This document shows, piece after piece, positions 8,969-23,896 of a stretch of DNA of 50,537 nt (the stretch's first letter is position 1; the number at the start of each line of letters is the position of its first letter). Below the pieces are notes generated by a model. That model ran no database searches, was not told the origin of the DNA, and saw only the letters and a list, made by a program, of their open reading frames with translations. The DNA comes from an uncultured Duodenibacillus sp. (GTDB lineage Bacteria; Pseudomonadota; Gammaproteobacteria; Burkholderiales; Burkholderiaceae_F): the NCBI GenBank assembly GCA_944388865.1, contig CALXKM010000023.1, positions 1-50,537 of the forward strand. The letters run 5' to 3'. The position numbers and the translations under genes were made by a program.

Positions 8969-9331
8969 CTTGCCAAAACCAAAGAAATTTATCTGCATCG
9001 GATTGGCGTTGGCCTGTAGCTAGACATCGCCGTCCCTGGTACAATCGTGCGCTGCATCAAAACGGTTTTGGCTTTTTGCCGTCGTCCGAACAGGGCGAAA
9101 ACAAAAGCATTTTTCAAAAATTCATCACCCTTCGCGGGCGTTGGCCCGCGGTTTGCGCGAGCGCATCAGGCATCTTCTGTTTCTCGTTGACTTTTTTCTT
9201 GCCAAGCAGCAATGAAAAAGACCAACGAACAATGAATGTGCCCAAACATGCGTTTTTCGTGCATCTCATGGGGGGTCTTCGCTTCGTCGATGAGGTTTTT
9301 CCATCGTTTTAGCAAAAAGGAGACACATGCC
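8969..9331 (+). other. Long non-coding leader before the AAA ATPase gene
   Basis: No convincing gene lies in these 363 nt. They contain a perfect hairpin, CGCGGGC (9133-9139) with GCCCGCG (9144-9150), and a ribosome-binding site AAGGAG at 9317-9322. Immediately after it the two-codon ORF ATG-CCA-TGA (9327-9335) overlaps the ATPase start codon. Open frames here (for example 9076-9312) have poor codon use and no recognisable product. Confidence 0.5.
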
Positions 9332-10339
9332 ATGATGCACTTTAACGCGCGCATTCCGGCCCGAGCATTCGGATTTGAGTCCGATCACACGGTCCTAGGG
9401 TTCAAGCCGACGCAAAAGACGCCCGCTGCGGCACGCCTCATCACGCCCGATGAAGATCACCTCTTTGATCCCGAGTTCTTCGAAGAGCTCAGGCTCTGGT
9501 GGGAATGGGACGACACCCGCTCGCCCCTGTACATCTCCGGCCCGAGCGGCTGCGGCAAAACGTCTACCGTCTTGCAGTTTCTTGCCCGCGTCCAAGCGCC
9601 CGTCGTCACGATTACGTGCCGCAGACGCACGGAGAAAAATGACCTGATCGGTCAGTGGGGCATAAATGCCTCGGGCGGCTTTTCCTGGTTCGACGGCCCT
9701 GCCGCCATAGCATGGCGGCACGGATGCGTTCTCGTCATCAATGAGTTTTCGCTTGCGCCCTCAGAAGTCTGGGTGGCGCTCAACGATCTCTTTGAGGGCG
9801 ATGCGCTTTTCATTGAACGCAAAAGAGAACTCATCGCCCGGCACCCCAACGCACGCGTCATAGTCACCGACAATTGCCGCTGCGGCGGAGCCGGAATGGA
9901 CTCTCAGTACCTTGCCCGCAATCTGCAAGACACGAGCACAATCGAGCGCTTCTGGCACCTTGAGGCCAGATGGCCTGCGCGTGAAGCCGAAAAGATGCTG
10001 CTGATGCGAAAAACCCGCAAAGCAGCCTCAGGCTTATCTGCACTCGAGCACGAAGCCATTGTCGAGGCACTGCTGCAGTTTGCAGCAAAGACTCGGCAAA
10101 CGGATGAAACTCAGACAAAGAAAAACCCGAATCTGCGGGCAATTTCACCCCGCGTTCTGATTCGCTTTGCCGAGATTTTTCTGACGCTTGTCTCGCAGCA
10201 CGCGCCCGTGCCCGACCCCGTCAAGACGGCTCTTGCCATGGCATTTGCCAACGGCTGCGCGCCGTCGGAAAGCTACGCCTTGCAGCAGCTTGCTCACTTT
10301 GAGCTCGCTGGCCTTGCCGCTGCGCGCAAAACTGCCTGA
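9332..10339 (+). CDS. CobS/MoxR-like AAA ATPase of the conjugation-type module
   Basis: The 335-residue product is a single AAA+ domain of the MoxR/CobS clade. Walker A is GPSGCGKT at 70-77, Walker B region VLVINEFSL at about 133-141, and sensor 1 region VIVTDNC follows. The usual Walker B Asp-Glu is Asn-Glu here, which is unusual. Related cobS-like genes are carried on SXT/R391 elements, which fits the TraD gene downstream; the actual role is unknown. There is no sign of cobalt chelatase partners. Two ATG codons are possible (9332 or 9335). AAGGAG is 9 nt before the first, and a two-codon ORF overlapping the start could allow reinitiation control. Confidence 0.8.
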   Translation: MMHFNARIPARAFGFESDHTVLGFKPTQKTPAAARLITPDEDHLFDPEFFEELRLWWEWDDTRSPLYISGPSGCGKTSTVLQFLARVQAPVVTITCRRRTEKNDLIGQWGINASGGFSWFDGPAAIAWRHGCVLVINEFSLAPSEVWVALNDLFEGDALFIERKRELIARHPNARVIVTDNCRCGGAGMDSQYLARNLQDTSTIERFWHLEARWPAREAEKMLLMRKTRKAASGLSALEHEAIVEALLQFAAKTRQTDETQTKKNPNLRAISPRVLIRFAEIFLTLVSQHAPVPDPVKTALAMAFANGCAPSESYALQQLAHFELAGLAAARKTA

Positions 10340-10504
10340 AGCTTCCGTCTTCTAAGGGTTTGCCGCTTAGCCAATGCCGGCATCTGAAAATTTTTTCTTT
10401 GCTTTTTGGGGACAAACCCGCAACTTTTCCCCAAAAGCCGCACGCGGCGCAAAGGAGAAATTTGCGTGCACTCTGTCCCCCTTTTTATGGAGGAGATCTG
10501 CACC

Positions 10505-10780
10505 ATGCAGCAAGCATTTGACTTTCGACTGACGACGGAATCGGCGCCCGCGTTTCTGACTCGGCCCGCAGACAGAAGTTCTGCGCCCGACGTTTTAGAC
10601 AAAGACAAGCCCGAGAGCTCAGCCCTCAAGGCACCTCTAGCGCCCTGTCCTTTCTTTGTCATTGCCAGAGACCACGCTCTTGCCGATAAAAGAAATGCGC
10701 CCGATGCTGCGCGAAAAGCGCCCGTTAAAAGGCGCTGCCGCCCGGCAGCTCAAAGGACTCCAAGCGAAGTCTCGCTTTGA
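10505..10780 (+). CDS. Hypothetical 91-aa protein, possibly frameshifted
   Basis: I do not recognise this product. A strong site GGAGGAG lies 9 nt before the ATG, so translation beginning here is likely. The protein is hydrophilic and starts MQQAFDFRLTTES; its last third is basic and rich in Arg, Ala and Pro, which looks like out-of-frame sequence. From about 10650 the +1 frame has better codon use and a more protein-like pattern of hydrophobic residues. A frameshift or programmed shift between about 10641 and 10750 is possible. It sits between the AAA ATPase and the 518-aa protein. Confidence 0.55.
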   Translation: MQQAFDFRLTTESAPAFLTRPADRSSAPDVLDKDKPESSALKAPLAPCPFFVIARDHALADKRNAPDAARKAPVKRRCRPAAQRTPSEVSL

Positions 10781-10904
10781 TGTCTTCGACCTGACGCTTT
10801 TTGTCTTCGTGCTTGAAAAATTTTTGACCAACGGCTTCGTCCCGGAGTTGTACCGCTTCTTGAGGCGTTCATGCACTCCGGGCCGGCGCCTTCTCTGTAA
10901 ATAG
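10692..10904 (+). CDS. Overlapping small ORF or displaced C-terminus of the preceding gene
   Basis: This 70-residue frame is +1 relative to the gene starting at 10505 and overlaps its last 89 nt. It reads MRPMLREKRP at the start and includes an amphipathic or hydrophobic stretch FDVFDLTLFVFVLEKFL. In the same frame a TAG at 10638-10640 blocks extension upstream. No good ribosome-binding site precedes the ATG, so it is either translationally coupled or the true C-terminus of the upstream gene after a frameshift. No family recognised. Confidence 0.35.
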   Translation, partial: EMRPMLREKRPLKGAAARQLKGLQAKSRFDVFDLTLFVFVLEKFLTNGFVPELYRFLRRSCTPGRRLLCK

Positions 10905-10964
10905 CCGTCTTGTCGCTGCTGTCAGCACATGCCTGTGTAGAACTTTCCGTGTTCCCTGCAATAG

Positions 10965-12521
10965 ATGTCGTTTGCCTCAACGCTTCGCCCTACCAAATCA
11001 AAAACAACCGCAGAACGTGTTCTGGCAAAAGGCCTGCTTGAGAGGCGCTTGGGCACTACGCGTCTTATCGATGAGCTGCTTGCTTTGGATATTTCTTTAT
11101 CTCGGGCGCTTGAACTCGCTCAGCTTGCGGCCGCGCTTTTGATCCAAACAAAAAACGACGGACTTCACTTGCATGTCCTCGAACAAAGTCTGAAGCTGCT
11201 GCGGCTTGCCGCCGCGGCAGGAGCACTGCGAAATCTCTCGGCTTGCCAGAGCCTTGCCTACATCCTGGCCGGCGCTGCAAGCCTCCTGCCTTGCCCGGCT
11301 CTTGCTCTCAAGAACATCATCGGACGCCGCAGTCTGCTTCTTTATTGCGCACTCGTGCGTTTTGTCCGCAAAGCACAACTGCAAGTGAGCGCACACGAAC
11401 GCCTTCTTTTGCCCGCTTGGCAATTTCTGCTACTTGCCCGCATTGCGGCAAAGACAAATCGCACCGCTGACCACAGGCTTGCTTTTACCCAAGACATCAT
11501 GATGGCCCTTGCCTCAAGCGCCGCTCGCTCTCCTGAGCCCGTTCGCGTGCTCAAAGCCCGCAGTCCCGATAAAGGCATGCTCTTTTTGGTGCTTGCCGAT
11601 CTTGCGCACTTTCTGCTCAAGGAAAACAATGCACAAAAGCTTTCCTGCAAACCTTCGCGCAGAATGCTCAGAGAGTGCGAGCGCAGAATCTGCTCTGCGC
11701 TGTTTGCCTGCGGTGCGGCGCACTCCGTCGTCGAACTTGCCGATCCCCTTGGCGGCATGTTCGGCACTCATGCGAACGCAAGACGCAAAGCTCTTCTTCT
11801 AGAGCACTCTTTTGCCGAAGGACTCATTGATCTTCTTGTATCAACAGCCTCTGCCTGCCAAACAACGCTCCCCGTATTTGTTTTTGAACAACTGCTTTTT
11901 AGTTGTCTTTCGAAAGAAACAGGCCTTGCGCTGCAGCAGAATACGACCGAGGGCGAAATTGCCGTCTGTGAGCATGAGCTCAAAACACAAGCCTTGCCTG
12001 TGCCGCTGCTCACTGAGTTCAGACAAGCCGCCCAAGAAATTGAAAAGAGCATTGCCGCCAACGCCTCGCGAAAAGACTTTCACGTCTTTCGCGCAGCCTT
12101 TTCCTATGTTGAAGAACAGATTGAAGCCCCCTTTGAGGCTGAGAATCATTTTTTTATTTTCATCGAACGCTCGCGCCTTCCAGATGCTGCGCTTTGGGCG
12201 CCTGTGCTTGGCTCATGCGGAGTGCTCGTCTGTGAATCAAAAGGCGCACCCGAGCGCAAATGGCGCAGCGAACGCGCAGACTTTTTCAAAATGGAAGTTG
12301 CCGACGGCTTTGTCTTCGTTCTTGACCGCACGCCGCTTCTTGAGCTGCAGCCGCTTGCGCTTGCCTCAAGGCTGCGCAGCCGAAAAGCAGCCCCTGCGGC
12401 AGCTTTGAACCTTCTGGCATGGACGGCAAGCGAGCTGCTCTTATTCAGCGAGCTCAAAAAAGAAATCGCAGAACTGCGCGCTCTTTTAGAGTCTGAACAG
12501 CAAAAGGGAGACGTTTCTTGA
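10965..12521 (+). CDS. Unrecognised 518-aa protein in the traI position
   Basis: I cannot assign a family. The protein is rich in Ala, Leu and Arg and mostly predicted alpha-helical without clear membrane spans or a signal peptide. Two histidine-containing stretches near the N-terminus (GLHLHVLEQSL around residues 65-76, and HERLL near 143-147) recall loosely the histidine-rich GGLLxHSLEVA region of MobH/TraI_2 relaxases, but the catalytic pattern is not complete. Its position directly before traD with an overlapping stop/start (TGA at 12519-12521, TTG at 12518) is the traI position of SXT-type elements. A diverged, inactive relaxase or an unrelated module protein are both possible. The ATG at 10965 lacks a strong ribosome-binding site. 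Confidence 0.7.
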   Translation: MSFASTLRPTKSKTTAERVLAKGLLERRLGTTRLIDELLALDISLSRALELAQLAAALLIQTKNDGLHLHVLEQSLKLLRLAAAAGALRNLSACQSLAYILAGAASLLPCPALALKNIIGRRSLLLYCALVRFVRKAQLQVSAHERLLLPAWQFLLLARIAAKTNRTADHRLAFTQDIMMALASSAARSPEPVRVLKARSPDKGMLFLVLADLAHFLLKENNAQKLSCKPSRRMLRECERRICSALFACGAAHSVVELADPLGGMFGTHANARRKALLLEHSFAEGLIDLLVSTASACQTTLPVFVFEQLLFSCLSKETGLALQQNTTEGEIAVCEHELKTQALPVPLLTEFRQAAQEIEKSIAANASRKDFHVFRAAFSYVEEQIEAPFEAENHFFIFIERSRLPDAALWAPVLGSCGVLVCESKGAPERKWRSERADFFKMEVADGFVFVLDRTPLLELQPLALASRLRSRKAAPAAALNLLAWTASELLLFSELKKEIAELRALLESEQQKGDVS

Positions 12522-14368
12522 ATAAACGCCGTTCGCTTTTTACGGCCGATGCCCAAAGTCTTATCGCCCGCACCTGGCGTCCTGTCGTTGAGCTGCCTGC
12601 CGCCATGATCTGGTGCGCCGCAGCCGTTTATGCGCTTGTCTGCTCTGCCCCACTATCGATCAGCAGGGCGCTTTTAGCCGTCTCAATCGTGATGGGGCTG
12701 CGGCGGCTGCATTCAGCCTTCGTCGTGCTGCGCGCACGCGCACTTCTTGCCGGCAGGGCGCCAGGTTTTCACAGCACAGAATCCTTGGCGCGCCGCGTCA
12801 GGCGCTCATTCAAACCCCGCTCTCTGGTTTGGTTCGGCAAAGGCTTTGATTGGACGCCCGAACACTCGCAAAAGCTCTATGAGCTAAGCCGCGTCGACAT
12901 CTCCCGCATGGTGCCTGCGGCTGCGCTAAGGCGCATCCTTGTGCGCGCACCTGCGCCGCAGCCGGGAGCCATCGGGCTTGCCGCCATTGACGGACTCGAG
13001 AAAGAGCTCTCGGACATCACGGTTTCCGACAAAACGCTCGAAGGCGGCACGCTCATCGTTGGCACCACGCAGGCCGGGAAAGGCGTGCTGCTCACAAACC
13101 TCGTCACACAGGCCATCGTGCGCGGCGACACCGTCATCATCGTCGATCCCAAAATGAGCTCTCGACTCAAGGACGCTGCCTCAGCTGCGTGCAGAAGCGC
13201 CGGCCGCTGCGAACCTGCATTTTTTCATCCAAACGCCGAGCACGGCATTCGCCTCAACCCGCTCGAGCACTTTGAGCGCGCAAGCGAACTTGCCAGCCGC
13301 ATCACGGCCGTCATGACCGAAGACGGCCCCTTCACCGCCTTTGCCTGGTCTGCGGTCAACATGGTCTGCAATCTGCTCTTAGCCTGCGGACAAAAGCCAA
13401 CTCTGGCCGACATTGAGTCCGTGCTCAACGGGGCGCTCGAAGCAAAGCTCGCCGAGGCACTGCGCAAAAGCTGGGGTGAAAATCGTTTTGAACTGTGCAA
13501 AACCGATGCGCATTCGCGCGGCCTCAGAGGGCGCGAGCTGATGCTCGACATTTTGAAAAACTGGCGACAGTCTTCTGACCTCAATCCCGCCATTGAAGCG
13601 GCTGCCGCCGTCTACGGCCACGATCCCCTGCACTACGCCAAGATCACAGCAAGCCTCATGCCTGTCTTAGGCATGCTTACGAGCGGCTCGCTGCGCTCGA
13701 GCCTCTCACCTGGGGCCGAAAACGACAACGATCCAAGGCCGGCAGCGTCCTTGACGGACATTCTCGACAAAAAAGGCGTGCTCTATGTCTGCCTCAATTC
13801 CCTTCCCGATCCAATGGTTGCTTCGGCCATCGGTTCCATTTTGCTTGCCGACCTTGCCAGCTGCGCGGGCAACCGCTACAACAACCCCGACATCGAACGC
13901 AACACGGTTTGGCTTTTTGTCGATGAGTGCTCCAACGTCATGAACAAGTCTCTCATCGAAATTCTCAACAAAGGCGCCGAATCGGGCATTCGCACCACAG
14001 CAGCCATGCAGACGGTAAGCGACCTGGCCGCTCGTCTTGGCAGCGCCGATGAAGCCCGCATGGCTTTGGGAAACTTCAATACGCTCGTCGCTCTACGAAC
14101 GAAGGATCGCTTCACGCAGAACTTCGTCACGGAGACCTTCGGCAGAACCTATATCGCCAATCACGGCGCAACGCTCACCACGTCCTCGGACTCCTTGCAG
14201 GCGGGCAGCTTTTCGGCCTCTTATTCAAGACAGCTTTCGGGCGAACGCGATGACCTGATTCCTCCAGAAATGCTCGGGCGTCTGCCCAACTGCGAATTCT
14301 TCGCAAGCATTGCGGGCGGGCGCATCGTCAAAGGCCGCATTCCGATACTCTCAAGCACCAGACAATAA
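12518..14368 (+). CDS. traD: TraD-type conjugative coupling protein (VirD4 family), altered Walker A
   Basis: The 616-residue product matches coupling proteins of SXT and PFGI-like integrative elements, which dock the relaxase-DNA complex to the secretion channel and pump DNA. Two membrane segments lie at about 24-44 and 48-62. WFGKGFDW at 105-112 is typical. The nucleotide-binding region runs GGTLIVGTTQAGKG to about 189, then VIIVDPK. Walker B is VWLFVDE at about 464-470, and TKDRFTQNFVTETFG follows. The P-loop ends GKG where GKT or GKS is needed to coordinate Mg-ATP, so activity is doubtful. I chose the TTG at 12518: GGGAG lies about 8 nt upstream and it overlaps the preceding stop. Confidence 0.88.
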   Translation: MNKRRSLFTADAQSLIARTWRPVVELPAAMIWCAAAVYALVCSAPLSISRALLAVSIVMGLRRLHSAFVVLRARALLAGRAPGFHSTESLARRVRRSFKPRSLVWFGKGFDWTPEHSQKLYELSRVDISRMVPAAALRRILVRAPAPQPGAIGLAAIDGLEKELSDITVSDKTLEGGTLIVGTTQAGKGVLLTNLVTQAIVRGDTVIIVDPKMSSRLKDAASAACRSAGRCEPAFFHPNAEHGIRLNPLEHFERASELASRITAVMTEDGPFTAFAWSAVNMVCNLLLACGQKPTLADIESVLNGALEAKLAEALRKSWGENRFELCKTDAHSRGLRGRELMLDILKNWRQSSDLNPAIEAAAAVYGHDPLHYAKITASLMPVLGMLTSGSLRSSLSPGAENDNDPRPAASLTDILDKKGVLYVCLNSLPDPMVASAIGSILLADLASCAGNRYNNPDIERNTVWLFVDECSNVMNKSLIEILNKGAESGIRTTAAMQTVSDLAARLGSADEARMALGNFNTLVALRTKDRFTQNFVTETFGRTYIANHGATLTTSSDSLQAGSFSASYSRQLSGERDDLIPPEMLGRLPNCEFFASIAGGRIVKGRIPILSSTRQ

Positions 14369-14376
14369 CGATCGCC

Positions 14377-15018
14377 ATGGATGTCGTTTTTCTTTTGCGC
14401 CGCACCCTGGCGGCAAGTCTTGCGCTGAGCATTGTGCTGTGGACGACGGCAGCCTTGCTCGCGACTCCCGAAACTGCCAGCCGCGTCCTTTCGGCTGAGT
14501 TGAGCTCATCCTCGTCGGCGTGCAGACAGCACCTTGTCGACTGCGCAAGGCCCATTGCCGCTCCCTTTTCATTTGTTTTGCGCTCCCTCCCGCGACCGAA
14601 TCCAGACCTTTCTTATTTCTTGCCTGAAGAGGCGGCAGTCATCGGCGACGCACTCCATGCGCTGCGCCGCAGTTTGTCGGAATGGCTCGAAGAGCGCACA
14701 AGAACCCTCAATCTGCTCGTTTTGCTAGCCGTTTTGCGCTGCTGCGGACTGGTCGATGGATTTTTGGCGCTTGCTGTTTTTGCCGCAGCCGCGCTCACAG
14801 ACGCTTTGAGCATGCGCAAAATCGCCGCACTTGGCTTCATGCCGCCCTTGCCGGGCATAAATTTCTGGCTTGCCCGTGCAGGTTCAGTTTGTCTCGGAAT
14901 CTCGGCTGGCGTAGGCGTCATGCCTTTTTCGGCAGCGCCCCTGGTGATGTTCTGGGCGTTGGCAGCAGCACTTTGCTGCGCGGCAGGCTGGGTGAGAACC
15001 TTTCACAGGTTTCGTTGA
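14377..15018 (+). CDS. DUF4400/TraJ-like integrating-element membrane protein
   Basis: The 213-residue protein has an N-terminal membrane segment (about 8-30), a central hydrophilic part and two or three more membrane segments (about 107-130, 150-172, 178-200). The segment CCGLVDGFLALAVFAAAALTD resembles the LVDG core of DUF4400 proteins, which directly follow traD in SXT- and PFGI-like elements; this order is kept here with an 8-nt gap. Their role is an accessory to transfer and is poorly known. The assignment rests on position plus a short motif. No further tra genes follow: the next feature is the IscB locus on the other strand. Confidence 0.6.
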   Translation: MDVVFLLRRTLAASLALSIVLWTTAALLATPETASRVLSAELSSSSSACRQHLVDCARPIAAPFSFVLRSLPRPNPDLSYFLPEEAAVIGDALHALRRSLSEWLEERTRTLNLLVLLAVLRCCGLVDGFLALAVFAAAALTDALSMRKIAALGFMPPLPGINFWLARAGSVCLGISAGVGVMPFSAAPLVMFWALAAALCCAAGWVRTFHRFR

Positions 15019-15043: not shown

Positions 15044-15126
15044 CTCCTGCGCCCGAGGCTTTCGGCATTGATGCAGGATGCGGTGCTCGTCTTCAGGCAA
15101 GAAGAGAGATGAACTTATGGATATTT

Positions 15127-15140
15127 CCCAAAAGCTGTGG
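15127..15140 (+). repeat. Degenerate third copy of the iscB-flanking repeat
   Basis: CCCAAAAGCTGTGG matches the first 14 bases of the repeat at 15183-15200 at 13 of 14 positions. With the preceding ATTT it matches the inward-reading right copy at 17 of 18 positions. It lies in direct orientation 56 nt left of the perfect copy. Confidence 0.6.
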
Positions 15141-15182
15141 GTTCTGCATGTTTTTGACTCCTTCCGAATCAGATGTTTCTAT

Positions 15183-15200
15183 CCCAAAACCTGTGGAGTA
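15183..15200 (+). repeat. Left arm of an 18-bp inverted repeat bracketing iscB
   Basis: CCCAAAACCTGTGGAGTA is an exact reverse complement of 16754-16771. It ends 3 nt from the iscB stop codon (15204-15206). The arms enclose the iscB gene and the omega-RNA region, so they may mark the ends of a 1.59-kb unit. I see no target-site duplication just outside. Confidence 0.75.
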
Positions 15201-15203
15201 CGG

Positions 15204-16502
15204 TCAGGCAAATGCGTAGCCATATCCGTCACTTCTTGCCAGTACACGACAGTTTTTTGCCTGTCCTTTGACTCGAAAACCAGGCATCAGAAGAACCACA
15301 CTGCCGTCGGCAGACGGATAAGCATTTCCGTTCCAAATGCCCGGATGCTTGCCTTTACTCACCTTGATTTGGACATAGTCTCCGGTTCCTACTCCGTGCG
15401 GACGCTTTTGCCGCATGAAATAACAGACCGGAAAGCCGTATCTGTCTGTGCGCGTGCGTTTGTACTGTCCGCGGCCTGTGCAGGTCACAGACAGCACCCG
15501 CATGTCCGGGCAATAGTTCACAGCGTTGACGCAGCCGACGCAAAGCGCATCTAGCCAGTGTTCCTTAGGAATATCGAAGACATGCCGGTTGAATTTGGTC
15601 TGAGCGCCGGATCCGGTTTGCACAGAAAGTCCGGTGGCCTTAAGCTGCCGGAACAAAGCCCACCGCGTCGCATTGACAGAGGCAGCATCCTTAAGCGGCG
15701 ATTTGAGCTGTTTCCGGATGCGGGTCAGAAGTGCCGGCTTGCCCTTAAGAAACTCCTCAAGCGGCCTTGCACCTTTTTTCTGATTGCACTGCACGCACGC
15801 TATCGCAAGGTTGGAAACACGGTTTGAGCCGCCCTTCGCTTTCGGGACAATGTGCTCAATATTCAAAGGAACTCCGCTTTTGCCGCAGTAGACGCATTTG
15901 CGGCCAAACTTCTCAAGCAGACATTCCTTCAGTTCATATCCGGCAAGTTCTCCCTGCTGATACTCAACGCCTGCAATATCTGCTTTCTGCATCTGATGCG
16001 TGTCAAACTTCACAAGTTCCTGCACCAGACCGATGACAGGGGCGAGCCGGCGCAAGCGGTTTACCCATGACAAAGTTGTATTGACGCGGTGCTGCAGACT
16101 GGGCGGCAGCCAGCCCTCCGGTCTTCTGCGGTTGTTGAAGCGTTTTGCCCTGTAGCGAAGATTGCGGCTTCGTCGGCCTCTGCGCAAGGCACGTCTTGAC
16201 AACAGGGCATCCCGAATCGAAACGCCCCGGTGTTTCAGATTGATGAAAAAGAGTGCGTGGTGCGCTTTATTTTCATCTTCACGGACAACGGCAATGCCGG
16301 TCTCTTTGGAGCCTGGATCAATCTTTACGAGCACGGACTGCACTTTGCTGTCGGCAAGCGTGCGATCGACAAGTCTGATCGTAAACGGATGCAGCCTGTG
16401 AACACGTGCGCGTCCTTTTTTGAGAATGCGTCTTGCTCGTGCCGGCGTTGTCGGCATCAGCGGCTTGTGATCCTTATCGAGTACAAAAACTTTCACTGTC
16501 AT
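15204..16502 (-). CDS. iscB: IscB, omega-RNA-guided HNH/RuvC nuclease
   Basis: The 432-residue protein has the complete IscB architecture. The N-terminal PLMP domain has KPLMP at 13-17. RuvC-I has Asp62 in VKIDPGS. An arginine-rich bridge helix covers about 103-127 (RRALRRGRRSRN). RuvC-II has Glu162 in LVQELVKFD. The inserted HNH domain has zinc-type cysteines CVYC at 203-206, EHIVPKAKGG at 216-225 and CVQCN at 236-240. RuvC-III has His315/Asp318 in KEHWLDAL. All catalytic residues appear intact. IscB proteins, ancestors of Cas9, are encoded by IS200/IS605-type elements and cut DNA guided by an omega-RNA transcribed just upstream, which is present here. No TnpA transposase is adjacent. The start ATG overlaps the last RNA hairpin region, with AAGGGA just before it. 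Confidence 0.94.
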   Translation of the reverse strand: MTVKVFVLDKDHKPLMPTTPARARRILKKGRARVHRLHPFTIRLVDRTLADSKVQSVLVKIDPGSKETGIAVVREDENKAHHALFFINLKHRGVSIRDALLSRRALRRGRRSRNLRYRAKRFNNRRRPEGWLPPSLQHRVNTTLSWVNRLRRLAPVIGLVQELVKFDTHQMQKADIAGVEYQQGELAGYELKECLLEKFGRKCVYCGKSGVPLNIEHIVPKAKGGSNRVSNLAIACVQCNQKKGARPLEEFLKGKPALLTRIRKQLKSPLKDAASVNATRWALFRQLKATGLSVQTGSGAQTKFNRHVFDIPKEHWLDALCVGCVNAVNYCPDMRVLSVTCTGRGQYKRTRTDRYGFPVCYFMRQKRPHGVGTGDYVQIKVSKGKHPGIWNGNAYPSADGSVVLLMPGFRVKGQAKNCRVLARSDGYGYAFA

Positions 16503-16735
16503 TTCCCTTACGGGAGCAGGCGGCGGCGTCTTCCGAAACCGACACCCGTGTCAAATCAAAATGTTCCCCTCGCCCATGTTGAACACCGGCATCACGTCCG
16601 CACCCGTTTCGTGCTCTCCCACAGCTTGTCTGCTGCGCGGACTTCAAGAGGCCGGAGCTGAGGAAGCACCCCGGCGTTGGTCTTTAACACTGTGTTCAAC
16701 GTAGTTCACTCCACATAAAGTTCACTTGGGCTGGG
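16503..16735 (-). ncRNA. Candidate omega-RNA scaffold of IscB
   Basis: The non-coding region immediately 5' of iscB is heavily structured on the minus strand. GTTGAACAC (16700-16692) pairs perfectly with GTGTTCAAC (16586-16578), enclosing the middle. A hairpin GCCGG/CCGGC spans 16675-16651. GTCCGCGC (16642-16635) pairs with GTGCGGAC (16603-16596). CCC-GTAA-GGG at the 3' end abuts the start codon. Length (about 230 nt) and position match known omega-RNAs. The guide should be the 5' end of this RNA, reading from outside the element, but I cannot fix the 5' boundary, so the end given is approximate. Confidence 0.72.
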
Positions 16736-16753
16736 CTATCGAAATCTGCGGGT

Positions 16754-16771
16754 TACTCCACAGGTTTTGGG
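16754..16771 (-). repeat. Right arm of the 18-bp inverted repeat
   Basis: TACTCCACAGGTTTTGGG is the exact reverse complement of 15183-15200. It lies 12 nt beyond the stop codon of the flavodoxin-like gene and about 250 nt upstream of the iscB start, just outside the omega-RNA region. Confidence 0.75.
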
Positions 16772-16783
16772 AAATAGCCAAAC

Positions 16784-17638
16784 TTATTTCGTGTACTTGA
16801 ACTTCTTGTCAAGATGCTTGACAAGGTCGGCTCTGAGAGCTTCGATTTCCTTGCCGTAGTTTTTGGAAAGATTGGCAGGGGTCTGATCGTTGCAGAAGCG
16901 TCCGAGGCTCTTGACTCCCCAGAATCCTGCGGTGTCGTCGTCGAGCACCTTGAAGGCATTGAGATACTTGTCCCAAATTGCATTGCCGTCGATGCCGTCG
17001 CCGACATCGCCGCGACCGCGGCCGATCCAGCCGCTGTTCATGATGGTGTAGATCGACTTGCCCTTAAGAAGTCCTTCAAGTCCCTTGTCGGTGTCGCGGT
17101 AAGCAAACTTCTTTTGGAAAACACGCTCCATGTATCCCTTGACCATGGGGTTGGGCGTGTCGTGCCAGTTGGGATAGGCAAAGACGATGTAGTCGGCGGC
17201 GGCTACCCAGAGCTGCTCCATGGCAACGTCTTCGGGCGTCTTGCCGAAGCCGTCCTTGGCCTGAAAGAACGTCTCGCGCGTGAGCACCGGGTTGAACTTC
17301 ATCTCATAGAGGTCGCGCAGCGCCACCTCGCAGCCCTTGTCCATAAAGTGCTTCATGGCCGTATTGACAAGATCCCACTCGACGGACTCATGGCGCGGAT
17401 CACCCACAACAAAGAGCACGCGCACCTTCTTGCTGCCCTTGGTAAAGCCGTTGGGCTTGACGCTTTGACGGAACTTCGGCGGCACCACAGAAGCAGACGT
17501 GACGGCGTCGACATTCTTGGGCATCTCGGTGCCTTCAATGTTGACTTTCATAGTCGCGCCTGTGACGGCATCGGCAGCGCCCGCCTCAATAGCAAAAGCA
17601 GCGGCTGCAGCAGCAGCCAGAGCGATGAATTTTTTCAT
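16784..17638 (-). CDS. Exported flavodoxin-fold NAD(P)H dehydrogenase-like protein
   Basis: The 284-residue product has a Sec signal peptide (MKKFIALAAAAAAAFAIEAGA) and a flavodoxin-like NAD(P)H:quinone reductase fold (PF02525 type). VLFVVGDPRHESVEWDLVN opens the fold, and ADYIVFAYPNWHDTPNPMVKGYMERVF is the FMN/partner region typical of NQO and KefF proteins. Most relatives are cytoplasmic, so export is unusual. Between signal peptide and domain lie DAVTGATMK and DAVTSASVV, two near-copies of the D-x-x-[ST]-G-A-[ST] flavinylation motif used by ApbE; this suggests a remnant of an FMN-binding segment or a site for covalent flavin. The start is the ATG before the signal peptide, with GGGAAG 7 nt upstream. 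It may shuttle electrons in the periplasm; that is inference. Confidence 0.82.
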   Translation of the reverse strand: MKKFIALAAAAAAAFAIEAGAADAVTGATMKVNIEGTEMPKNVDAVTSASVVPPKFRQSVKPNGFTKGSKKVRVLFVVGDPRHESVEWDLVNTAMKHFMDKGCEVALRDLYEMKFNPVLTRETFFQAKDGFGKTPEDVAMEQLWVAAADYIVFAYPNWHDTPNPMVKGYMERVFQKKFAYRDTDKGLEGLLKGKSIYTIMNSGWIGRGRGDVGDGIDGNAIWDKYLNAFKVLDDDTAGFWGVKSLGRFCNDQTPANLSKNYGKEIEALRADLVKHLDKKFKYTK

Positions 17639-21872: not shown

Positions 21873-22102
21873 AAAAAATCCTTTCTTTGCAAACGTTGAC
21901 TCTCCGGCATCCGACTACAGGACGCCGCTGAGAAATACCGTATCTTGCCGTGTCTGGGGGCTTTTGTCCATCAAAGATGGAACAAAAAATTTTGTTCTCC
22001 TTTTCTGCTCCGTAATTTAGGCAACATCGGCATTTGCTTGCCATTCGCTTGATTCGCTTGTATTTTTTGACAATCACATTTGTACCTGAACAGGGAAACA
22101 CC

Positions 22103-23896
22103 ATGTCGTCTTTTCGTGCAATCCCTTCTTCTTTTTTTGTCCTTGCATTGCTGAGCTCTCAGAACATTTTCTGTCAACCAAACAGCTCTCTTCCTCCCGT
22201 TACCATAGGTATAAGCCCATTTTCCCCGTACTCTATGAACGAGCCAATCGTTCCGGCCACTATCGAAGCAATTCGAAAAGCGATATCTCCCAGGGGCCTT
22301 AAGGTCCTAACAAGCCCAACACTTGAGTCCTTTGCACACAGCATCAAAGGTGGATGCTGCGACTTCATGCTAACTTCCGCTGGGTTTTACCGCCGAATGA
22401 CCTACATTGAGGTAGGAGCTAAAGACATCGCCACAGTGATCAGTGATCAAACCCCAAATCCCAATGAAGCCGAAGGTTCTGTGTTTTTCACACTCAAAAG
22501 TCGCAACGATTTGCAAACCATAGAGGATCTGCAGGGTAAAAATCTAGCTATTAACCAAGACACAGGATTTTCCGGCTATCAAATTGCCATGGGCGAAATA
22601 AGTAAGAGAGGATACGATCCTGAAAATTTTTTCCGGAGAATTCAGTCGCTTGGGGTGGATACGGGAGATGTTGTCAAGGCAATTCGTGAAAACAAAGCCG
22701 ATGCAGGGGTAATACGAACCTGTTCCCTAGAAACTTTGCGAGAAAGTATCGAAGATTTAAAAGTTCTGTCCCCCAAAAATGCGCCCTGGTTAGGTTGCGT
22801 TCGCTCAACTGATCTTTATCCAAACTGGACATTTTCGACACTTCCCAGTGCGGCTCCCTCCGTTACCCGTGATGTTGCCCGTGCCCTTTTTTCGATGTCA
22901 GCACTTAAAAACGGTCTTCGCTGGGGAATTGCCACTGACTTCACCGCCGTAGATTCCCTGTTCCGAACTTTGAAAATCGGTCCATTTGCGTATCTTCGAC
23001 AATGGACCGTTTCCCGTGTATGGGATGAATTCAAACTCTGGATTATTCTGGGGCTGTTTGCTCTTGGCGGAGCCGTGGCACATAGCTTCAGATCTTCAGT
23101 GTTAGTTCACCGTGCCCGAGAACAACTTTCCGTATCACACCAACATGAAATGCAGCTTGAGCAACAATCCCGTCAAGCTGCAGAACGCATGGATAAAATG
23201 CAGAAACTTGGTGCTGTGACCCAAATGGGTACGCTGATGGCTCACGAATTGAAACAACCTCTAGGAGCCATCTCGTCATATTGCTTCGGGTTGCTGAAAA
23301 TGCAGGAAAACGGTTCCCTCAGCCCGGAATTGTTACGAGAAACCTTGGCAAGGATTTCTGAACTTGCTAAGAAATCAGGAAGCACCATTGATCACGTGCG
23401 CTCTTACGCCAAAGGGCAGTCTGAAGCCGAAACTTTTGATGCGATTGCAGAAATTCAGGAAATTGCAAAACGTTTCCGCAAAAGCGGTCGCTACCCGTAT
23501 TGCATTGAGGAAATTTATGACGCGACCTCAGCAACCATCTGCATCAACAAACTTGAATTTGAGTTACTTATCCAGAATATCCTACAAAATGCTTCCGAAG
23601 TACCTTCGGACATTGAAGAGCCAAAGATCCTCATACGTTGTGCAGTTAACGACAATCTGCTTCTAATCTGTTTTGAAGATGACGGAAAAAAACTCAGCCT
23701 GTCCGAATTTGATCGCATCTGTAACTTTGAACCTCACACATCCAAACAAAACGGCCTTGGGCTAGGGCTTTGTATTGTTCGGAGCATTGTTGAGAGAGCC
23801 ATGGGAGAAATTCGTTTCACCAGAAAACCCGTAAGAGGTCTGATTGTGGAAATTCATCTTCCCATCCACACAAACACCCCTTCTGATTCACCATGA
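22103..23896 (+). CDS. TtrS-like sensor histidine kinase with PhnD-type periplasmic sensor
   Basis: The 597-residue protein has a signal sequence (about 1-24), a periplasmic PhnD/substrate-binding-like sensor (about 30-300), a membrane segment at about 310-328 (LWIILGLFALGGAVAHSF) and a coiled linker. The histidine kinase core has His381 in MAHELKQPLGAI and an ATP-binding lid GLGLGLCIVRSIVE. The layout and length match TtrS, the tetrathionate sensor, and its relatives. I placed the start at ATG 22103 because AGGGA lies 7 nt upstream and the signal peptide follows; the frame is open to 22034. It overlaps the regulator gene by 4 nt. The downstream flavoprotein and cytochrome genes suggest it senses their substrate. 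Confidence 0.88.
   Translation: MSSFRAIPSSFFVLALLSSQNIFCQPNSSLPPVTIGISPFSPYSMNEPIVPATIEAIRKAISPRGLKVLTSPTLESFAHSIKGGCCDFMLTSAGFYRRMTYIEVGAKDIATVISDQTPNPNEAEGSVFFTLKSRNDLQTIEDLQGKNLAINQDTGFSGYQIAMGEISKRGYDPENFFRRIQSLGVDTGDVVKAIRENKADAGVIRTCSLETLRESIEDLKVLSPKNAPWLGCVRSTDLYPNWTFSTLPSAAPSVTRDVARALFSMSALKNGLRWGIATDFTAVDSLFRTLKIGPFAYLRQWTVSRVWDEFKLWIILGLFALGGAVAHSFRSSVLVHRAREQLSVSHQHEMQLEQQSRQAAERMDKMQKLGAVTQMGTLMAHELKQPLGAISSYCFGLLKMQENGSLSPELLRETLARISELAKKSGSTIDHVRSYAKGQSEAETFDAIAEIQEIAKRFRKSGRYPYCIEEIYDATSATICINKLEFELLIQNILQNASEVPSDIEEPKILIRCAVNDNLLLICFEDDGKKLSLSEFDRICNFEPHTSKQNGLGLGLCIVRSIVERAMGEIRFTRKPVRGLIVEIHLPIHTNTPSDSP

Follow-up and report, generated by a model that had tools for sequence, protein, structure and literature searches.

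The stretch of DNA analysed here (50 537 nucleotides, contig CALXKM010000023.1 of GenBank assembly GCA_944388865.1, from an uncultured Duodenibacillus sp.; called the window below) carries on its minus strand a gene for the RNA-guided nuclease IscB and the omegaRNA that belongs to it. The nuclease is a true IscB, but the mobile unit around it is not the canonical one. The element that holds it is bounded by terminal inverted repeats (TIRs) with a target-site duplication (TSD) of fixed length, and it moves as a TIR/TSD unit. Very probably, an active-looking IscB-omegaRNA unit has left the IS200/IS605 lifestyle (Y1 transposase, 'peel-and-paste') and now travels as cargo in a non-autonomous transposon whose TIRs measure 23 nt and whose TSDs measure 8 bp, with a DDE-type transposase moving it in trans. 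The RNA scaffold would then begin exactly at the outermost base of the left TIR, so that each new flank becomes a guide.

The insertion footprint was read by comparing empty and filled sites in related genomes, as had been proposed in an earlier note on the window. The element on contig C14 of genome G043 (L052:1601-3217) interrupts a gene, and the same region is uninterrupted in genome G105. The two stretches of G105 that match the G043 flanks share exactly 8 bp (GCTTCTTG). The site reads GGCGGGAAGCTTCTTGAGGAA in G105 and GGCGGGAA-GTTTCTTG-element-GCTTCTTG-AGGAA in G043. The empty site lies in an intact open reading frame of 471 amino acids; the portion of this frame that is downstream of the element in G043 encodes an NYN-domain protein. 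This is the footprint of an integrase making 8-bp staggered cuts.

The borders of the window element were determined by inverted-repeat and paired-end scans (Table 1). The earlier note had set the locus at 15183-16771. These coordinates match a perfect inner repeat (15182-15200 with 16754-16772) and not the true ends at 15119 and 16779. The TIR-like inner copy (window 15180-15202) lies about 40 bp inside the right end. No duplication was seen by eye at its edge, and only the outer copy is bordered by a TSD; the inner copy is possibly the remnant of an earlier right end. A TIR-only element of 38 bp, made of two TIRs back to back, was found in the same genome (G000:C33:72874-72911, L060) with a perfect 8-bp TSD (GAACATTC).

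In a tree of IscB proteins from which L088 was left out, four proteins including that of the window formed one branch (support 100/99), called clade B, within a Sutterellaceae group (99/94); its sister is called clade A. IscB loci were scored for the best 23-nt TIR together with an 8-bp duplication around iscB (maximum score 31). The set of 101 loci comprised the best 80 of 169 genome loci, 19 viral loci (some of them copies from one record), the window and the G053 locus. Six loci had flanks that were too short and 95 were scored; longer elements would be missed, and the G033 copies lay outside the scan. The highest scores were obtained for G043:C14 (29; TIR match 22/23, TSD match 7/8), G053 (28; 20/23 and 8/8) and the window (27; 20/23 and 7/8), and all other loci scored 21 or less. 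Clade-A loci were at background level, as was L084, a clade-B copy of G043 with a broken left end. As a control, the window left flank was paired with 20 foreign right flanks and with 20 random window stretches, which gave a maximum of 20 in 40 trials. Among the loci scanned, the TIR/TSD architecture is restricted to one IscB clade; the Sutterellaceae IscBs closest to that of the window have it too. A second G043 copy lies in halves on contigs C30 and C17, with TAGAAACG flanking the left end (L082) and TAGAAACC the right end (L050); the two halves probably represent one insertion split by other mobile DNA. The clade-B element made up of L082 (G043:C30, 260-2041) and L050 is apparently broken inside its omegaRNA by nested mobile DNA, and a Mutator-family (IS256-like) transposase adjoins its left half.

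The omegaRNA was identified by covariance search. The Rfam HEARO model was matched from end to end (1-211) at 16558-16779(-) with 71.5 bits (E 7.4e-14). The gathering score is 83, and a default Rfam scan of the window therefore lists nothing. The omega-RNA that the earlier note had placed directly upstream of the gene was thus recovered, though below the curated cut-off. The 9-bp pairing that it had described (16700-16692 with 16586-16578) is exact and lies in the HEARO long-range stem. In all three clade-B sources matched (window, L051 and L052), position 1 of the model falls on the first TIR base, so the 5' arm of the RNA's first hairpin comes from the left TIR. In the RNA alignment the core is conserved, and the TIR of clade B occupies the place of the first hairpin proper to clade A. 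The TIR folds with the DNA just inside the element into a hairpin at that same place (z against shuffles of −3.9, −2.0, −3.9 and −3.1 for the window, L051, L052 and L082, respectively). One end of the element also seems to serve as the initial hairpin of its guide RNA.

ISC/HEARO elements insert with their right border at ATG(A/G). Clade A keeps these habits: left ends begin with GTCAAY, and right ends close immediately before ATGA or ATGG, judged by eye, in 5/5 cases with an available right end (L053-L056 and L059). In clade B, no right end closes at ATG(A/G), and the GTCAAY-type first hairpin is replaced, not flanked, by the TIR. The proteins differ mainly in their last part. Mean identity to 19 outside IscBs over residues 331-432 was 38% for clade B versus 55% for the four intact clade-A proteins. 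In the three preceding segments clade B had the higher value: 60 versus 56% over residues 1-200, 54 versus 53% over 201-260 and 55 versus 52% over 261-330 (clade B versus clade A). L164, L091 and L090, which have broken frames or stops, were left out of these figures. When L091 (clade A) and L090 (outside) were included, the contrast over residues 331-432 was weaker (A-A 41, A-B 36, A-outside 46, B-outside 38); with L164 in clade A, the values over the same residues were 56 for A-A and 40 for A-B. In HEARO enzymes, the target motif is recognised by the C-terminal domain that interacts with the target-adjacent motif (TAM), according to PMC9755519. On the simplest reading of these sequences, TAM preference would have changed on the branch where insertion chemistry changed.

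The window minus-strand gene was confirmed as a canonical IscB with its catalytic residues. The NCBIfam model guided_IscB (NF040563) was matched in full (1-314/314) with 444.7 bits against a cut-off of 175, and Pfam RRXRR (233.8 bits) and HNH were found as well. The motifs are PLMP at residue 14, IDPGS at 61 (RuvC-I D62), the bridge helix at 107-118, ELVKFD at 162 (RuvC-II E162), CVYC at 203, EHIVPK at 216 (HNH H217), CVQC at 236 and HWLDAL at 315 (H315/D318). No substitution of D62, E162, H217, H315 or D318 occurs when the window protein is aligned with seven relatives (eight sequences), and PLMP is replaced by RLMP in one of them. The claim that every domain and catalytic residue is intact was borne out on both counts. 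Residues 216-217 of the HNH domain are EH in 4/4 aligned clade-B proteins and DH in 4/4 aligned clade-A proteins. Solved IscB structures, including TbaIscB and OgeuIscB, are sequence matches of the window protein; a predicted structure of the latter (mean predicted local distance difference test score 44.8) was not used. The ratio of non-synonymous to synonymous substitution rates (dN/dS) was 0.14 for the pair of G043 copies; comparisons among more distant members of clade B, whose synonymous sites are near saturation, gave 0.06-0.11. Pairs with L088, whose frame is broken (0.42 and 0.65), were excluded from this range. The dN/dS values of 0.06-0.14 indicate that the nuclease has been maintained.

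The mobilising transposase was sought through the TIRs. With at most one mismatch, the TIR pattern was found in 5/67 family genomes at 10 places: the window left end (one), the 38-bp element (two), the G043 IscB elements (four) and isolated positions (three). Matches with up to three mismatches in the family genomes were at about the control level. With up to two mismatches, 12/399 order genomes were matched, the window's genome included, and two TIR patterns gave no exact match in IMG/VR. A paired-end scan of 22 loci (20 plus L080 and L081, with flanks mostly of 3-4 kb) revealed no second end (maximum 19 of 28); the positive controls (window, L085 and L051) scored 25-26, and the 38-bp element was too short for the scan. 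ISL3, IS1595 and Y1 transposases were the families searched genome-wide. ISL3 matches were present in 44/67 family genomes and IS1595 matches in 8/67. Ends were sought at 32 ISL3 loci (six copy comparisons) and 11 IS1595 loci, and most showed no clear ends; at the loci that did allow both ends to be placed with an 8-bp TSD, the TIRs differ from those of the element. In the ISL3 comparison, the window element starts with GGCTATT versus GGYTCTT; the 8-bp TSD agrees and the remainder is unlike. G043 carries the element yet has no ISL3 match. Two minor loci were noted in these scans. L081 (G056:C288:8678-8696) is an isolated TIR (GGCTATTTTCCAAAACTGGCAGG) with no partner end within 6.5 kb, beside a sequence that resembles a group II intron end. 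L346 (G038:C35:18456-18564) has two facing TIR-like ends 109 bp apart (15/20 paired, duplication 4/8) and is possibly a degenerate mini-element, or possibly due to chance.

Several results weigh against cargo status in a DDE-type transposon with a TIR built into the RNA. No transposase with these TIRs was found in 67 family genomes, in 399 order genomes or with exact patterns in IMG/VR, and the DDE type is therefore deduced from the footprint, that is from TIRs with fixed-length TSDs. Three of the four IscB TSD pairs carry one mismatch. For the window's own insertion, no usable empty site was obtained in the 67 family genomes because the intergenic DNA is too diverged, though the flavodoxin-like gene is found in relatives. 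All clade-B HEARO scores are below the curated cut-off (61-71.5 bits in the three matching sources versus 94-117 in seven clade-A loci), and HEARO was not matched at E 0.001 by L050 or L082, into which one G043 copy is broken. In the G053 copy (L051) the hairpin is weak, and its best fold lacks the expected outer pairs. When hairpin arms were swapped between copies, native pairs were not consistently favoured and there was no clean covariation signal: the window arm paired best with its own or the L082 partner, and the G053 arm paired better with the partner of another copy. The arm-swap result was not used as covariation evidence.

Other explanations were weighed against these data. The element could be an ordinary solo IscB of the IS200/IS605 (ISC) kind, mobilised by a Y1 TnpA in trans, with its inverted repeats acting as subterminal hairpins. 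The ISC-type ends of sister clade A would agree with this, and so would the Y1 transposases present in 7/8 genomes searched and in that of the window (PF01797 at G000:C12:26909, E 2e-36, with a fragment on C40). None was found on C23, in line with the statement of the earlier note that no tnpA is present. As Y1 transposases exist in the genome, it is the footprint and not the gene content that argues against their acting in trans. IS200/IS605 insertion is not known to make a TSD, and 8-bp duplications were found at four insertion sites, one of them with an exact empty site; the window element itself is bordered by a TSD and holds no Y1 transposase gene. Together with the contrast between the right ends of the two clades, this makes such an element very improbable. 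The earlier suggestion of a solo unit mobilised in trans therefore holds for the mobilisation, by a footprint of TIRs and 8-bp TSDs (DDE type) instead of a Y1 tnpA. The other suggestion of the note, a domesticated nuclease, is not supported, as in relatives this unit has inserted at sites that are unrelated.

It also seems improbable, if somewhat less so, that an ISC element entered a pre-existing miniature inverted-repeat transposable element (MITE) and was then fixed, the TIRs being those of the MITE and unrelated to omegaRNA function. The 38-bp TIR-only element in the window's genome and the second TIR copy near the right end of the window element speak for such a capture. It is countered by the replacement of the sister first hairpin (GTCAAY..) by the TIR, with model position 1 on the first TIR base, and by several whole-unit insertions in relatives. 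An origin by ancient MITE capture, followed by loss of the old ends, may still apply. Decay is unlikely but deserves more weight: the IscB would be an unused passenger and the element a plain MITE-like parasite. Copies per genome are few, HEARO scores are low, the L088 frame is disrupted towards its 3' end and four residues of the C-terminal domain are missing from L052. Against this, the catalytic residues are intact in the four aligned clade-B proteins, the RNA core is conserved and dN/dS lies at 0.06-0.14.

If the element is indeed the cargo of a DDE-type transposon, its cycle may be pictured as follows. A DDE-type transposase acting in trans would insert the element and duplicate 8 bp. As the left TIR edge is the first scaffold base, each insertion would put a new flank, with its TSD, where the omegaRNA reads its guide. 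An omegaRNA transcribed from the left flank would carry this flank as guide, with the TSD as its TAM-proximal half. IscB, expressed and guided by this flank, would then cut the site that lacks the element (on the sister chromosome, or once the element has excised), provided that the duplication is followed by a TAM. Repair with the inserted copy as template would keep the element in place or spread it. The guide itself is predicted from the sequence as the flank at the 5' end of the RNA, in agreement with the earlier note, over 16 nt, the guide length of IscB. A candidate TAM was looked for beyond the right TSD. The six bases there are pyrimidines in 27/30 positions in 5/5 elements (L088 by its right end only), a weak, post hoc observation. 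This richness was reached in 0 of 100,000 random draws from the elements' own flanks, and the left side has 11/24 pyrimidines (four elements; Fisher p 7e-4). The mismatches in 3/4 TSDs all fall in the two TAM-proximal positions (likewise post hoc and weak). In the comparison of G043:C14 with the G105 empty site, the right TSD copy is the altered one. Such an alteration would remove a self-target made of seed plus TAM. This idea stems from the TAM-proximal mismatches in three of four TSDs and from the perfect TSD of the 38-bp element, which lacks IscB; the G053 TSD, perfect although the element carries iscB, is an exception. More tentatively, the whole could be a hybrid selfish element, in which the transposase-binding end is the first hairpin of the guide RNA and the 8-bp TSD is the seed. 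Each insertion would reprogram IscB against its own empty site with a new pyrimidine-rich TAM, and the self-target at the right junction may be escaped by seed mutation. This proposal is rather doubtful at present.

The element shares with IscB/HEARO systems (ISC, IS200/IS605 superfamily) the protein family, the catalytic motifs, the omegaRNA core, the RNA upstream of iscB and a guide expected from the left flank. Unlike them, it has TIRs and 8-bp TSDs and not hairpins next to ATG(A/G), its first RNA hairpin is a TIR and its C-terminal domain has diverged. Like the Sutterellaceae insertion sequences of ISL3 or IS1595 type, it has ends beginning with GGYT and, where both ends were placed, 8-bp TSDs; however, their TIRs (GGYTCTTC.. 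or GGTTCATC.., and GGCTCTGTT..) diverge past the first bases, and the window element has no transposase gene. Two TIRs, a TSD and the lack of a transposase are also found in MITEs and other non-autonomous TIR elements, but the cargo of the window element is an RNA-guided nuclease under selection, together with its RNA. Fanzor proteins, of the TnpB/Cas12 lineage, are RNA-guided nucleases carried as cargo by eukaryotic DDE-type DNA transposons, whereas the window element is bacterial, belongs to the IscB/Cas9 lineage and has a TIR inside the guide-RNA scaffold. Among the titles and abstract openings listed by full-text literature searches, none reported a TIR/TSD element with an IscB. IscB is held to be ancestral to Cas9, and its role is usually explained as assistance to Y1 transposition. 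An IscB lineage with a changed mobiliser, a conserved RNA core and an alteration mostly in the TAM domain would separate the nuclease's own role from a role for TnpA. In PMC9755519, TnpA is described as associated with only a few HEARO nucleases. With an IscB lineage of this kind, the passage of RNA-guided nucleases between transposon types could be put to a direct test in bacteria, and its IscB is predicted to use a new TAM.

Table 1. Features of the IscB element in the window (positions are those of the whole stretch)
Feature	Position	Strand	Remarks
Whole element	15119..16779	(-)	1661 bp, non-autonomous; inverted-repeat and paired-end scans
Left-end TIR GGCTATTTCCCAAAACCTGTGGA	16757..16779	(-)	23 nt; doubles as 5' arm of the first omegaRNA hairpin (16734-16779)
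Right-end TIR GGATATTTCCCAAAAGCTGTGGG	15119..15141	(+)	20/23 identical to the left TIR
Inner TIR copy near right end	15182..15200	(+)	19/19 complementary to 16754-16772
Left TSD copy ATAAGTTT	16780..16787	(-)	8 bp; would be the TAM-proximal 8 nt of the predicted guide
Right TSD copy ATAAGTTC	15111..15118	(-)	8 bp, 7/8 the same as the left copy
omegaRNA scaffold	16503..16779	(-)	Rfam HEARO model 1-211 covers 16558-16779
iscB	15204..16502	(-)	432 amino acids, predicted RNA-guided endonuclease; PLMP, RuvC I-III, bridge helix, HNH, C-terminal TAM-interacting domain
Predicted 16-nt guide TACACGAAATAAGTTT	16780..16795	(-)	3' end of a flavodoxin-like gene; predicted
Hypothetical TAM position ATCTCT	15105..15110	(-)	Pyrimidine-rich in 5/5 clade elements; predicted post hoc

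Some further observations were made. In G007, of the same genus, a distant IscB lineage is matched 17 times (32-37% identity) and ISL3 six times; its IscB family is apparently expanded. Beside the element, positions 9236-15018 of the window are part of a conjugative region, with an AAA ATPase, an SXT-type TraD (514 bits with the NCBIfam model) and, below the cut-off, a weak match to DUF4400. At 22034-23896, the window encodes a histidine kinase fused to a phosphonate-type periplasmic binding domain.
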